Source: Rhodothalassiaceae bacterium
Lineage (GTDB): Bacteria > Pseudomonadota > Alphaproteobacteria > Sphingomonadales > Rhodothalassiaceae
Direction of reading: 5' to 3'
DNA length: 64,000 nucleotides
Assembly (NCBI GenBank): GCA_026004935.1
Contig: BPKC01000001.1
Span: 558,001-622,000 of the forward strand
Below, one piece after another: positions 16,575 through 39,395 of this stretch. Position 1 is the first letter of the stretch. Each line of letters begins with the position of its first letter. Made by a program: the position numbers and the translations under genes. The notes under the pieces are model-generated. The model searched no databases and was not told the origin of the DNA. It saw nothing but the letters and a program-made list of their open reading frames with translations.

Positions 16575-17046
16575 TCGGTAATCGCCGGTTCGTGATCGGT
16601 GCACCGACCGGCGCGCCCGGCCCCTTCCCTCGTCACCCGCCGGCTTGACCGGCGGGTCCAGCAGACGGCGGGGCCGATTACCGCCGTCGGAGCTCCCGTC
16701 CCCGCCCGCTGGGTTCGCCGGTCGAGCCGGCGAACGACGATTCAGTCATCGGTCATCGGTCATCAGTAATCAGGAACCCGCGTGGCGAGCGCCCCCGGAC
16801 GGCACCCGCTTTCTTCGTCACCCGCCGCGCACTCTTCATCGTCACCCGCCGGTTTTTCTCCCGTTTCTGAAGACTGATGACCGATCACCGATGACCCGCA
16901 GGGTTCGCCGGTCGGGCCGGCGCACGACGCGGGAAGAATGCGGCGCCCGCCGTCCGGCGGCCGGCCTGCGCGGGTGCGTCTTGATGGGGGGCGCGGCGCT
17001 TCCCATCTCTTGCATGCCAAGAACATCACAAGGACATGCGAGGAAC
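16575..17046. repeat. Intergenic palindromic repeat cluster, copy A
   Basis: This gene-free 472-base gap is filled with short palindromes. Clear ones are 16635-16657 (ACCCGCCGG ... CCGGCGGGT) and 16714-16734 (TTCGCCGG ... CCGGCGAA); a related, less perfect one lies at 16899-16926. Between them are runs of near-identical heptamers (TCATCGG twice, then TCATCAG, 16746-16766) and their reverse complements (16876-16894). A 31-base block at 16710-16740 reappears exactly, inverted, at 35900-35930. The pattern resembles REP-like elements that accumulate between genes. Open frames across it are low-complexity by-products. The last ~60 bases probably carry the promoter of the next gene. Confidence 0.75.
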
Positions 17047-35213: not shown

Positions 35214-35792
35214 ATGTTCATCGAGACCCAGGCGACCCCGAACCCCAACACCATCAAGTTCCTGCCGGGCCGCGAGGTCAGCCCCGGCCGGCTGCTCGAG
35301 TTCACCGATGCGGCCGAGGCGGAAGCCCGTGCGCCGCTCGCCGCGCGGCTGCTGGCGGTGCCGGGGGTCAGGGCCGTCTTCCTGGGGCGCGATTTCGTGT
35401 CGGTGACGAAGGAGGAGGATGCCGACTGGGCCGCGCTGAAGGCGGAGCTGCTCTCGCGTCTCGTCGACCATTTTCTGAGCGGGGCGCCCGTCGTCCTCGA
35501 CAGCGGGGAGACGGAGGCCGCGGATTCCGCGGCGGGCGGGGACGGCGAGGACGGCGAGACCGTGCGCCAGATCAGGGCCGTGCTGGAGGAGAAGGTCGCG
35601 CCGGCGGTCGCGCGTGACGGCGGCCACATCCTGTTCCATTCCTTCGAGGACGGGGTGGTGTATCTCGAGATGCAGGGCGCCTGTGCGGGATGTCCGAGCT
35701 CCGTCTACACCCTGAAGCAGGGGATCGAGAATCTGCTGCGCTACTATGTCCCCGAGGTGCGCGAGGTGCGCCCCGTCGTCGGGCAGCAGTGA
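35214..35792 (+). CDS. NifU-domain iron-sulfur carrier protein (Nfu type)
   Basis: An Fe-S cluster carrier of 192 residues. The N-terminal Nfu_N domain begins FIETQATPNPNTIKFLPG, and the C-terminal NifU-like domain carries the cluster-binding CxxC in GACAGCPSS near residue 160. An acidic linker (about residues 95-115) separates them. The architecture is that of mitochondrial Nfu1/HIRIP5 and its alphaproteobacterial counterparts, which deliver [4Fe-4S] clusters to late targets such as lipoate synthase. Start ATG 35214 follows GAAGGAAGG. It stands alone ahead of a repeat-filled gap. Confidence 0.94.
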   Translation: MFIETQATPNPNTIKFLPGREVSPGRLLEFTDAAEAEARAPLAARLLAVPGVRAVFLGRDFVSVTKEEDADWAALKAELLSRLVDHFLSGAPVVLDSGETEAADSAAGGDGEDGETVRQIRAVLEEKVAPAVARDGGHILFHSFEDGVVYLEMQGACAGCPSSVYTLKQGIENLLRYYVPEVREVRPVVGQQ

Positions 35793-36427
35793 CTGCTGAG
35801 CGGTGCCCGTCGGTCCGCGAGCCCTGAGGGTGCGCACCGGCGGGTGACGCGCGCCGCACCCGTGCGCTGATGACCGATGACCGGCGACTGATCACCGATT
35901 CGTCGTTCGCCGGCTCGACCGGCGAACCCATGAGGCGGTGAACCCGGCACGGGTACCGGGGTTGGCTCCGCTGCCGGCTGGACCCGCCGGTCGAGCCGGC
36001 GGGTGACGGGAAAATAGTGTACCGGCGGGTGATGATGAGAGAGGGCCGGCGGGTGACGCTCTCTTTTCTCGTCATTCGCCGCGAAAGCGGCGAATCCAGC
36101 CGCCGGGCGCGACGGAAGCCCGCGCCGGGGGTTGCCCCCCTGCCCGCTGGACCCGCCGGTCGAGCCGGCGGGTGACGAGAAAATAGTGTACCGGCGGGTG
36201 ATGATGAGAGAGGGCCGGCGGGTGACGCTCTCTTTTCTCGTCATTCGCCGCGAAAGCGGCGAATCCAGCCGCCGGGCGTGACGGAAGCCCGCGCCGGGGG
36301 TTGCCCCCCTGCCCGCTGGACCCGCCGGTCGAGCCGGCGGGTGACGGGAAAGGGGAGTGGACCCGCCGGTCAAGCCTGCGGGTGACGGGAAAGGGGAGTG
36401 GACCCCGAGGCTAGCCGGGAGGCGGCG
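35793..36427. repeat. Intergenic palindromic repeat cluster, copy B, with 169-bp tandem duplication
   Basis: No gene fits here. Starting at 35981 a 169-base unit is followed immediately by a second copy (36150-36318) differing at about two positions, and the beginning of a third at 36319. That start is itself duplicated as a 41-base unit (36319-36359, 36360-36400) with several changes. Each unit begins with the palindrome GACCCGCCGG ... CCGGCGGGT and includes another (ATTCGCCGC ... GCGGCGAAT). At 35900-35930 lies an inverted, exact 31-base match to the repeat cluster after dapE, flanked by the same GATGACCG-type short repeats (35869-35899). It is probably a REP-like family growing by tandem duplication. 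Confidence 0.85.
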
Positions 36428-37039
36428 TCAGGCCGGGTCGAGGCGGTGGCGGGCGCGAAGCGCCGCGGCGAGCGTGCCCTCGTCCAGATACTCGAGGCTG
36501 CCGCCCACCGGCACGCCATGGGCGAGCTCGGTGACGGTCACCGGGCTGCCGGCGAGCCGCTCGGCGATGTAATGCGCGGTGGCCTGGCCCTCTATGGTCG
36601 CGGGCAGGGCGAGGATCAGCTCGTCCACCTCCTCGGTCTCGAGGCGGGCGAGCAGCGCGGGCAGCCGGATGTCCTGCGGACCGACGCCCTCCAGCGCGTT
36701 CAGCAGCCCGCCGAGGACGTGGTAGCGGCCCTTGAACAGGCGGCTGCGCTCCAGCGCCCACAGATCGGCCACCTGCTCGACGACGCACAGCAGCCGCGCC
36801 TCGCGTCGACCGTCCCGGCAGATGCCGCAGGGATCCGTGACATCGAGATTGCCGCAGCGGCTGCAGGCGCGCACCGCCTCCGCCACCTCCTGAAGCCGCC
36901 GCGCGAGCGGGCGCATCCGGCCCTCCCTGTTGGCGATCAGATGCAGCACGATCCGCCGCGCCGAGCGGGGCCCAAGCCCCGGCAGCCGCGCAAAGGCCTG
37001 GATCAGCCCCTCGATGGCGGGATGGCCTTCAGCGGTCAT
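36428..37039 (-). CDS. recR: Recombination mediator RecR
   Basis: Works with RecF and RecO to load RecA on gapped DNA. The 203 residues start at ATG 37039. The order is canonical: helix-hairpin-helix ([15 protein letters not shown], residues ~15-29), a four-cysteine zinc finger ([16 protein letters not shown], near 57-72), and the TOPRIM domain ([15 protein letters not shown], then [19 protein letters not shown]). The final block [17 protein letters not shown] is family-typical. It closes the dnaX-ebfC-recR cluster, conserved across many bacteria. Confidence 0.97.
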
Positions 37040-37094: not shown

Positions 37095-37418
37095 CTAGAA
37101 CGGCAGGCCCATGCCCGGCGGCAGCCCCATCTCGGACGCAAGCCGCGCCATCTCCGCCTTCATCCGCTCCTCGGCCGCCGCCCGCGCCTTCTGATGGGCG
37201 GCGACGATGAGATCCTCGAGGATCTCCCTTTCCTCGGGTTTGAGCAGCGACGGGTCGATGGAGACGGCCTTCAGCTCTCCCCTGGCGGTGAGCTGGACCC
37301 GCACCATGCCGCCGCCCGCCTGGCCCTCGACGGTGATGCGGCCGAGCTCCTCCTGCAGTTCGGCCATGCGCGCCTGGGCGTTCTGCGCCGCCTTGAGCAG
37401 CTGGGAGATGTTCTTCAT
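37095..37418 (-). CDS. ebfC: YbaB/EbfC nucleoid-associated protein
   Basis: A 107-residue dimeric DNA-binding protein. [20 protein letters not shown] forms the N-terminal helix, [20 protein letters not shown] the central sheet, and [11 protein letters not shown] and [12 protein letters not shown] the rest of the tweezers-like fold. The ATG overlaps the dnaX stop by four bases, and recR follows after 55 bases. The protein binds DNA with little specificity and is thought to act in nucleoid structure or repair together with RecR. Confidence 0.95.
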
Positions 37419-39187
37419 GATGGCTTCCGCTCTTTCCTGTCAGGGTCTTCGGGGCTGCCGCCGGCCGCGCGCACCGAGACGAGGCGGGCGTCGGGGAAGG
37501 CCGCGAACAGCGCCTTCACCACGGGGTGCGCCATCGCCCGCTCCCGCAGGGCCCGCTGGGCGGCCTCCTCCTCCTCGCGCAGGCTGGGGGCGCCGTCCTC
37601 CTCGGAAGAGAGCACCACCTGCCAGGCCCGCCCCGTCCATTCGCCGAGCAGCCGCCGGATCTCGCGCAGATCATCGGCGCCGATCTCGCTCAGCCGGCCG
37701 GCGACGATGAGCCCGGGGCGCAGCCGCACCGGACGCAACCGGTCCTTGATGAGCGTCGCAAGCCGCCCGCGGCCGTGGGCGTGGAACAGGGCCACGAGCT
37801 CGGCCAGCGTGCCGGGCATCGGATCGGCCGCCGCGGCCGCGTCGGCCGCCGTCGCCGGGTCGGGATCGGGCGCGGGCTTGCGCAGCGCCGCCCCGGTCGC
37901 TTCGGCCCGCGGAGCGGGCGCGGGATCGGGCCGCCGCCCGCCGCCCGCCGGCGCGGGCGTCTCCGCCGCCGGCCCGGCGGCCGCCCCGGCGGTGCCGCGC
38001 GTGGATGCCGGCGGCTGCCCCGCGCCCTCGCGCTTCAGCCAGGCCAGCGCCTCCGCCGGTGTCGGCAGCCCCGCCGCATGGGCGAGGCGCAGCAGCGCCA
38101 TCTCGGCGGCATCCATCGGCTGGGGGGCGGCGCGCACCTCCTCCAGCCCCTTGAGCAGCATCTGCCAGGCCCGCTGGAGCCGGGCCATGTCGAGATCGTC
38201 CACGAGCGCTTCCGCAAGCGCGCGCTCCGCCGGCCCGCGCAGGGGGTCCTTGAGGGCCGCGCGGGTAACCGAGATGCGGGCGAGCCACGCCAGCCCGTCC
38301 AGCAGGTCCGTCATCAGCAGCACCGGATCCTGTCCCGCGGATCTCAGGGCCGCCACGCGCTCCAGCACCTCCTCCGCGCGGCCCTTGAGCGCGGCGGCGA
38401 GCAGCTCGAGCACCGCCGCGTGGTCCGCAAGCCCCAGCATGCCGCGCACGGTTTCCTCGCCGATCCCGGCGCCAGAGAAGGCGATCGCCTGATCGAGCAG
38501 CGAGAGCGCATCGCGCACCGAGCCCTCCGAGACCCGGGCGATCACCGCCAGCGCCTCGTCGCTGACCGCGACCTCCTCGCGCGCGGCGATGTCCTTCAGA
38601 TGCGCGATCAGCACGTCCGGCGGCACGCGCTTGAGATCGAAGCGCTGGCAGCGCGAGAGCACGGTCACCGGCACCTTGTGGATCTCGGTGGTGGCGAAGA
38701 TGAAGATCACATGCTCCGGCGGCTCCTCCAGCGTCTTCAGGAGCGCGTTGAAGGCCGAGCGCGAGAGCATGTGCACTTCGTCGATGATGTAGACCTTGTG
38801 GCGCGCGGAGACCGGCGCATAGGCCACCGAATCGATGATCTCGCGGATGTCGTCGACACCCGTGCGCGAGGCGGCGTCCATCTCGATGACGTCGACGTGC
38901 CGGGACTCGGCGATGGCCACGCAGGCCTCGCAGCGCCCGCAGGGCTCGATCTCGCCGGCCGCCGGATCGCGGCCGGTGCAGTTCAGGGCGCGGGCGATGA
39001 TCCGGGCCGTCGTCGTCTTGCCCACCCCGCGCACGCCGGTGAGCAGATAGGCATGGGCCACCCGCCCCGAGCGCAGGGCGTTGGCGAGCGTGCGCACCAT
39101 CGCCTCCTGGCCGACGAGTTCGGCGAATCGCTGCGGCCGGTACTTGCGCGCGAGCACCCGGTAGGAGCCTGTGGCGTCAGCGGTCAT
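37415..39187 (-). CDS. dnaX: DNA polymerase III subunit gamma/tau
   Basis: The clamp-loader ATPase. The 590 residues start at ATG 39187; the open frame further upstream is noise. Walker A is LTGVRGVGKTTTARIIARAL near residue 50, a zinc finger of four cysteines follows (NCTGRD ... CGRCEACVAI), Walker B is VYIIDEVHMLS near 130, and the sensor-1 and arginine-finger region is FIFATTEIHKVPVTVLSRCQ. Domain III and an Ala/Pro-rich linker (about 395-470) lead to the tau-specific C-terminal part. I saw no obvious slippery A/T-rich site for producing gamma. The SRP RNA gene lies upstream. Confidence 0.96.
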   Translation of the reverse strand: MTADATGSYRVLARKYRPQRFAELVGQEAMVRTLANALRSGRVAHAYLLTGVRGVGKTTTARIIARALNCTGRDPAAGEIEPCGRCEACVAIAESRHVDVIEMDAASRTGVDDIREIIDSVAYAPVSARHKVYIIDEVHMLSRSAFNALLKTLEEPPEHVIFIFATTEIHKVPVTVLSRCQRFDLKRVPPDVLIAHLKDIAAREEVAVSDEALAVIARVSEGSVRDALSLLDQAIAFSGAGIGEETVRGMLGLADHAAVLELLAAALKGRAEEVLERVAALRSAGQDPVLLMTDLLDGLAWLARISVTRAALKDPLRGPAERALAEALVDDLDMARLQRAWQMLLKGLEEVRAAPQPMDAAEMALLRLAHAAGLPTPAEALAWLKREGAGQPPASTRGTAGAAAGPAAETPAPAGGGRRPDPAPAPRAEATGAALRKPAPDPDPATAADAAAAADPMPGTLAELVALFHAHGRGRLATLIKDRLRPVRLRPGLIVAGRLSEIGADDLREIRRLLGEWTGRAWQVVLSSEEDGAPSLREEEEAAQRALRERAMAHPVVKALFAAFPDARLVSVRAAGGSPEDPDRKERKPS

Positions 39188-39300
39188 CGGCCTTGATCGA
39201 GCCTTCCTGTCGCGGCGGACGAAGCTGCGGCGCAGTCTAGAAGCCGCACCCCGCTCACGGCAAGCGCACGCAGCCGGCGGCGCCGCCCGGGCCACAAAGC

Positions 39301-39395
39301 GGAAGGGCGGTCGCGACCCGCCGGCGCCCCGCTACGGCTGCTTCCTTCCGGACCTGACCGGGTTTGCGGGAGCCGGGCGTCCGCGCCGCCCTTCC
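39301..39395 (-). ncRNA. ffs: Signal recognition particle RNA (4.5S)
   Basis: On the minus strand the core contains GGTCAGGTCCGGAAGGAAGC followed by AGCC, the nearly invariant apical loop and Ffh-binding region of bacterial SRP RNA. The ends pair perfectly over ten bases (GGAAGGGCGG at 39301-39310 with CCGCCCTTCC at 39386-39395), giving one ~95-nucleotide hairpin, the usual small bacterial form. It sits about 110 bases upstream of dnaX on the same strand, an arrangement seen in many bacteria. Exact 5' and 3' ends are estimated from the pairing. Confidence 0.93.

Follow-up and report, generated by a model that had tools for sequence, protein, structure and literature searches.

REP palindromes with a CGTC tag are mostly alphaproteobacterial, form head-to-head dimers and are described as having no dedicated transposase; those of the Proteobacteria include dRS3 of Neisseria and RPE-4/6 of Rickettsia (Di Nocera et al., 2013; PMC3733652). 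The agent that moves CGTC REPs was stated to be unknown in that account (PMC3733652), and no later answer was apparent from titles and the opening parts of abstracts in the literature. Another closely related arrangement is the REP doublet or REPIN, a replicative unit that mostly occurs singly, near-identical doublets and their flanks also forming some tandem clusters (Bertels and Rainey, 2011; PMC3116915).

The array located between nfu and recR in the Rhodothalassiaceae genome falls within the published CGTC-REP family, as a large member, and its arrangement resembles that of BIMEs and REPIN clusters. The published REPs have an unpaired CGTC tag, a stem of 8–9 bp, a loop of 4–5 nt and a short unpaired tail, mostly CCA, and those of the present genome agree with them in tag, loop and CCA tail and have 9-bp stems; in both, head-to-head dimers predominate, heterodimers being found in several published families, and the elements are intergenic, lie between convergent or unidirectional genes and have no transposase match, which here refers to the Y1_Tnp screen and eight Pfam-checked genes (PMC3733652). 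A-T pairs at the first two stem positions were reported "almost invariably" for the published REPs, as a common rather than a name-giving property (PMC3733652); here, the type B and ATCC types have A and T at these positions, and types A (ACCC) and C (GTTC) differ. Clusters are the rule here and rare in the published family, with Neisseria and Wolbachia as exceptions, and the very strict left-right polarity, the spacer of ∼51 bp and the adjoining heptamer tracts also set the present REPs apart from the published ones (PMC3733652). Strict polarity, predominance of clusters and the (YGATSAC)n heptamers that adjoin the REPs are what is unusual in this genome.

The dimers resemble REPINs in being foldable inverted REP doublets whose spacer is less conserved than the REPs and is kept more in length than in sequence, and resemble REPIN clusters in forming tandem repeats of near-identical doublets including flanks (PMC3116915). 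However, REPINs are accompanied by RAYT genes and are mostly single, whereas the present genome has no Y1 match, its tags are CGTC, and most of its dimers are clustered with systematically different ends (PMC3116915). The label REPIN was withheld because the RAYT feature fails, though by analogy the array would work like a REPIN cluster. Alternating REP orientation, regular spacing and intergenic mosaics are shared with BIMEs, which belong to another REP family with another tag and have different linker motifs (PMC2817692; PMC3733652).

Organization of the array between nfu and recR

The window, i.e., the whole stretch of 64,000 nucleotides that was analysed, corresponds to C1:558001-622000 of a 2.91-Mb genome in two contigs. 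Analysis of the window with TRF detected a period of 169 with 2.3 copies at 35958-36351 (96% match, score 744) and a period of 41 with 2.2 copies at 36317-36405 (score 164), and the next-best tandem array of the window scored only 66. Only 2 mismatches in 169 bases separate the 169-mers at 35981-36149 and 36150-36318, and the copies of the 41-mer likewise show 2 mismatches in 41. This bears out the original prediction of a 169-base tandem duplication with a doubled 41-base unit and supports its claim of a recent expansion; as judged from one genome of the species, the active mechanism that it proposed is a conjecture. Its placement of the repeat between nfu and recR was likewise correct, as Pfam domains match both genes, which are transcribed convergently (Table 1). 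The prediction had also let each unit start with a palindrome; the repeat stands, but its phase does not, since the start of the 169-mer is arbitrary and its limits are out of phase with the dimer and the 61-bp linker that make it up. What actually repeats is a module of ∼109 bp in which two CGTC-tagged REP palindromes face each other head to head, ∼51 bp apart, with the tags at the outer ends.

The two REPs of the module are of different types, the left one having an ATTC/GTTC stem and the right one an ACCC/ATCC stem. The palindrome scan revealed three dimers (35901-36008, 36070-36177 and 36239-36346) and one additional right REP in the window array, arranged as left(C)-50-right(A)/61/left(B)-51-right(A)/61/left(B)-51-right(A)/12/right(A, imperfect), the first dimer having a left REP unlike that of the other two. 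Every REP of this array carries the CGTC tag, a 9-bp stem, a loop of 4–5 nt (4 nt in type B, otherwise 5 nt) and a CCA tail (CCA/TGG), in agreement with the predicted REP-type nature of the repeat. Among the left stems, ATTCGCCGC and GTTCGCCGG/A predominate, and among the right stems ACCCGCCGG/A and ATCCGCCGA/G.

Table 1. Positions of the REP loci of the window and of the genes on either side of the array (window coordinates).
Feature	Position	Strand	Remarks
nfu (Fe-S scaffold protein)	35214..35792	+	gene call; Pfam Nfu_N 3e-26, NifU 6e-25; end 108 bp upstream of array
Degenerate heptamer tract (YGATSAC)n, touching first left REP tag	35867..35900	+	regex match, sequence
Left REP type C: CGTC GTTCGCCGG CTCGA CCGGCGAAC CC	35901..35929	-	
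Dimer spacer, 50 bp	35930..35979	.	
Right REP type A: GG ACCCGCCGG TCGAG CCGGCGGGT GACG	35980..36008	+	
Linker 61 bp: two half-REPs (ACCGGCGGGTGATG, GCCGGCGGGTGACG) and pyrimidine run	36009..36069	.	
Left REP type B: CGTC ATTCGCCGC GAAA GCGGCGAAT CC	36070..36097	-	
Dimer spacer, 51 bp	36098..36148	.	
Right REP type A	36149..36177	+	
Linker 61 bp, copy 2	36178..36238	.	
Left REP type B, copy 2	36239..36266	-	
Dimer spacer 51 bp, copy 2	36267..36317	.	
Right REP type A	36318..36346	+	
Linker 12 bp belonging to the 41-bp tandem unit	36347..36358	.	
Additional right REP, imperfect, within copy 2 of the 41-bp unit	36359..36387	+	
Originally predicted two 169-bp tandem units	35981..36318	+	2 mismatches in 169
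recR, convergent to nfu	36428..37039	-	gene call; Pfam RecR_HhH, RecR_ZnF, Toprim, RecR_C
Second REP locus: right-51-left dimer 16631-16739 and imperfect left REP 16901-16929	16631..16929	-	

A duplication of this kind could be an artefact of assembly, as such arrays can break assemblies; the fragmented same-genus genome G001 (340 contigs) has a contig starting at a REP. However, the copies differ at two sites, the genome is in two contigs, so that the repeats were evidently spanned, and a duplication spanning at least one period was detected in 16 of the 48 multi-dimer arrays (periods of 120–363 bp and identity of 94–99.7%, by a method that admits little below ∼86% identity). Owing to these three observations, an artefact is highly improbable.

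Genome-wide distribution of the dimers

The genome search for the unit, which the original prediction had put forward, was productive. The exact dimer pattern gave 157 forward and 203 reverse matches in the own genome, which thus contains at least 360 dimers; the reversed-pattern control gave 0. The right-REP pattern with up to 2 mismatches yielded 331 + 371 = 702 matches (control, 0). Taken singly, the nfu-recR array is real, well explained and ordinary, one among many such arrays.

Scanning of 37 fetched stretches and the window for palindromes identified 517 REPs. Within these loci, all 191 head-to-head neighbours separated by ≤130 bp lie at a distance of 48–54 bp, 190 of them being left-right heterodimers and one right-right. 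The spacer length of 217 dimers was 51 bp in 151, 50 bp in 39, 52 bp in 21 and other in 6, and the gaps that separate dimers inside arrays also create other REP arrangements. Two or more REPs were present at 47 of 48 fetched places, which had been chosen for similarity to the array unit; by a less biased count, 51 of 64 places at 0–1.724 Mb carry two or more dimers.

Both neighbouring genes were called for 43 of the 47 arrays with two or more REPs, and, as judged with our own simple gene caller, 19 of these arrays lie between convergent, 20 between unidirectional and 4 between divergent genes, with none being intragenic. A bias of the array orientation relative to the genes was considered and dropped (of the 20 unidirectional arrays, 9 run with the genes, 10 against and 1 is mixed). 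A replication-strand polarity on either side of the terminus was also dropped, the clusters at 0–1.724 Mb being 30 plus and 34 minus. The positions of origin and terminus used here are rough, resting on the nearly opposite location of parB (349 kb) and the points of skew change; GC skew at 58 sampled places was mostly positive at 1.02–1.83 Mb and mostly negative at 1.84–2.66 Mb. The density of REP dimers was observed to rise toward the inferred terminus: it amounts to 1.7 per 100 kb at 0–0.35 Mb, takes successive values of 7.7, 7.1 and 8.6 between 0.35 and 1.40 Mb, and reaches 25.9 at 1.40–1.724 Mb, with a mean of 16.0 for the remainder of the genome, whose places are partly listed.

Hairpin structure and compensatory changes

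When 57 dimers, each from a different array, were aligned, 96.5% of the cells of the two local hairpins formed standard pairs and 47 cells showed double-sided changes, which fell at 4 pairs; slid versions of the alignment gave 25–46% pairing and 0–2 such changes. Among 500 shuffles, 49 reached 4 pairs with double-sided change and all reached the number of pair types, but the 47 cells and the covariation score were attained by none. As the 57 rows had been picked by the palindrome scan, this test leans toward structure and was therefore repeated on 194 distinct dimers collected with a search pattern that puts no constraint on three stem pairs or on either tag. The three unconstrained pairs were complementary in 192, 185 and 190 of the 194 dimers, the best of 500 shuffles reaching 116, 151 and 138. 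The left end read CGTC in 191 dimers and the right end read GACG in 190; dimers within one array are related, so these counts are not independent. This control strengthens the case for the hairpins, whose stem positions change in compensatory fashion. Long-range pairing of the left with the right REP arms as a conserved fold was rejected, as it was no better than in shuffles.

When one dimer was folded as DNA, its two hairpins formed together with an arm in the spacer, and the two tags paired to close the structure (z -4.9); folding of the whole array as RNA gave z -10.6 relative to shuffles. A role of the nfu-recR array in bidirectional transcription termination or in mRNA stabilisation, with selection for its duplication, would accord with this folding far beyond shuffles, with the covarying hairpins and with the convergent position of the array. 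However, a consensus scan of 35700-36500 detected no terminator-like site, the other arrays include those between unidirectional and divergent genes, the unidirectional ones have no orientation bias, and the recR locus of G001 lacks an array; such a role is therefore considered quite improbable.

No known RNA family was matched at the array (Rfam, gathering threshold), the matches in the window lying elsewhere. They comprise a DUF3800-VI RNA motif at 2565-2618 on the minus strand (51.7 bits, gathering score 35) and a small SRP RNA gene at 39298-39395 on the minus strand (54.6 bits). The latter adjoins ORF 37415-39157, which we take, from its translation, to be dnaX.

Search for a mobilizing enzyme

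An associated transposase had also been envisaged in the original prediction, and on this point it found no support: the genome has 0 matches to the Y1_Tnp or RAYT domain PF01797, the one family screened, for which 5 of 14 control genomes were positive. Of the 196 genomes examined from the order, 39 have Y1_Tnp and 11 have the right-REP pattern. No link between the REPs and Y1 enzymes is visible, since Y1_Tnp occurs in 2 of the 11 REP carriers (G008 and G018) and in 37 of the 185 other genomes. The full dimer pattern was detected in 3 of the 196 genomes, with 360 matches in the own genome (G000) and one each in G001 and G020; the count for G001 is a lower bound owing to the fragmentation of that assembly and its contig beginning at a REP. 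Four genomes (G018, G020, G063 and G078) have 19–43 right-REP pattern matches each, with a Y1 match only in G018 among these four, and some of their GGATTC or GGACTC stems were seen close together in opposite orientation.

An autonomous parent element situated between two REPs was sought among 18 predicted genes between arrays 1.2–3.2 kb apart and rejected. Eight of the 18 were checked in Pfam and ten by eye, and no transposase was found among the eight, which consist of a CRP-type regulator, a cyclopropane synthase, a TonB-like protein, HlyD, a flavoprotein, an aminotransferase, DNA polymerase I and one gene without a match (L028:4133-5869).

The CGTC dimers might still be mobilised by a non-Y1 enzyme or by the host replication or repair machinery. 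The 702 right-REP matches in a complete genome devoid of Y1_Tnp point in this direction, as do the strict polarity and near-fixed length of the dimers, which resemble ends recognised by a protein, and the lack of Y1_Tnp in four of the five genomes with at least 10 copies (G000, G020, G063 and G078, not G018). Against such ongoing mobilisation stand the eight Pfam-checked inter-array genes, with no transposase among them, and the flank comparison below, in which recent dispersal was not seen; on balance, it appears rather unlikely.

Heptamer tracts beside the REPs

In 326 kb of array loci, all 83 matches to the (YGATSAC)n regex were ≤157 bp from a REP, as against 0 matches in one shuffled copy. 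As these loci had been chosen for their REPs, places chosen for the heptamer were also examined. A 21-mer heptamer pattern has 99 matches genome-wide, and 14 stretches were taken from this list, mostly without a known dimer (two had dimers already listed nearby). In these stretches, 21 of 23 matches lie ≤300 bp from a REP, and the remaining two overlap at locus L159, where the scan revealed no REP in 2 kb.

Besides the tract given in Table 1, the window contains heptamer tracts at ∼16740-16785 (minus strand) and 16874-16900. The tract was often observed at 5 or 12 bp from a type C left tag. At locus L162 (G000:C1:2796800-2799000), a heptamer tract with an unpartnered left REP is repeated three times in tandem and followed by a complete dimer.

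Dispersal and local duplication of the dimers

Between arrays, the spacers are 63% identical (52% when shuffled), the left REPs 85% and the right REPs 92%, the identity of the REP arms being inflated by the picking scan (≤3 mismatches). Fifty-nine dimer pairs from different loci have ≤5 spacer mismatches. In 19 of them, identity is lost ≤5 bp from the tags on both sides; in 24 it runs for ≥20 bp on exactly one side and in 8 on both. Within arrays, only 11 of 132 similar pairs are bounded by the tags, and 111 run on for ≥20 bp on at least one side. That a third of the similar inter-locus pairs are tag-bounded suggests that the dimer can disperse as a unit, and the flanks usually held in common by array copies suggest local duplication. 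Part of the spread is block copying, given the 24 one-sided and 8 two-sided flank extensions among the 59 pairs, and only a minority of pairs speak for a unit bounded by the tags, 32 of the 59 keeping long flank identity on one or both sides. Moreover, unlike dimers are themselves bounded on both sides in 64% of 2196 sampled cases, so that only spacer similarity marks the tag-bounded pairs as copies.

All 19 tag-bounded inter-locus pairs have 3–5 spacer mismatches. Every similar dimer pair is tag-bounded in 9 of 29 pairs of arrays; the best dimer pairs of these 9 have 3–5 spacer mismatches, so that recent dispersal was not seen. The first dimer of the window and the dimer at ∼C1:1551142, for example, have 3 spacer mismatches and flanks without identity. 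As a separate observation, the spacer of the dimer in the second REP locus of the window (Table 1) is identical to one at ∼C1:512542, with ≥55 bp of flank in common on both sides; the two loci, 62 kb apart, represent a block copy. The recR locus of G001 (2.9 kb) contains no REP, and with RecR only 68% identical the junction is too diverged to be read.

The flank data fit an old dispersal of dimers together with block copying, probably followed by newer local duplication. It is conceivable that the dimers are relics, spread long ago by a RAYT-type (Y1) transposase that was then lost, with only local recombination altering copy number since, an option which was raised for CGTC REPs by Di Nocera et al. 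(PMC3733652). Such a history is in agreement with the genome's lack of Y1_Tnp matches, with the low spacer identity between arrays and with the 3–5 spacer mismatches of tag-bounded inter-locus pairs set beside the two differences between the 169-bp tandem copies. On the other hand, REP arms that are 85–92% identical despite diverged spacers suggest continuing constraint, an objection slightly weakened by the scan-inflated figure, and the frequency of Y1_Tnp among REP carriers reveals no Y1 link. We regard the relic history as a real possibility, somewhat short of an even chance.

The best explanation overall is very probably that of an intergenic CGTC-tagged REP array which arose through old dispersal of dimers and local duplication. 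Under this explanation, dimers would once have dispersed along the chromosome as tag-bounded units by way of folded single-stranded DNA. Homologous misalignment of nearby repeats, through replication slippage or unequal recombination, may then have duplicated a dimer and its linker in tandem, and at the nfu-recR site would have produced the 169-bp and 41-bp steps. The arrays may putatively serve as transcribed hairpins or as DNA sites, and they presumably persist because they lie outside genes and do little harm.

Implications for the CGTC-REP family

In our estimate, it is unlikely that a non-Y1/RAYT enzyme or a host process moves the CGTC REP heterodimers as true mobile units whose left and right ends are distinct. 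If it were true, the mover would best be sought in the present genome, which has 360 polar dimers and lacks a Y1 match, and the moving process would have left the heptamer tracts at the left tags as a by-product. For the CGTC REPs as a family, the alternatives are that the mover is something else or that the family survives on local recombination alone, and the question of the mover becomes testable in a compact genome in which strictly polar dimers number in the hundreds and a Y1 match is lacking.
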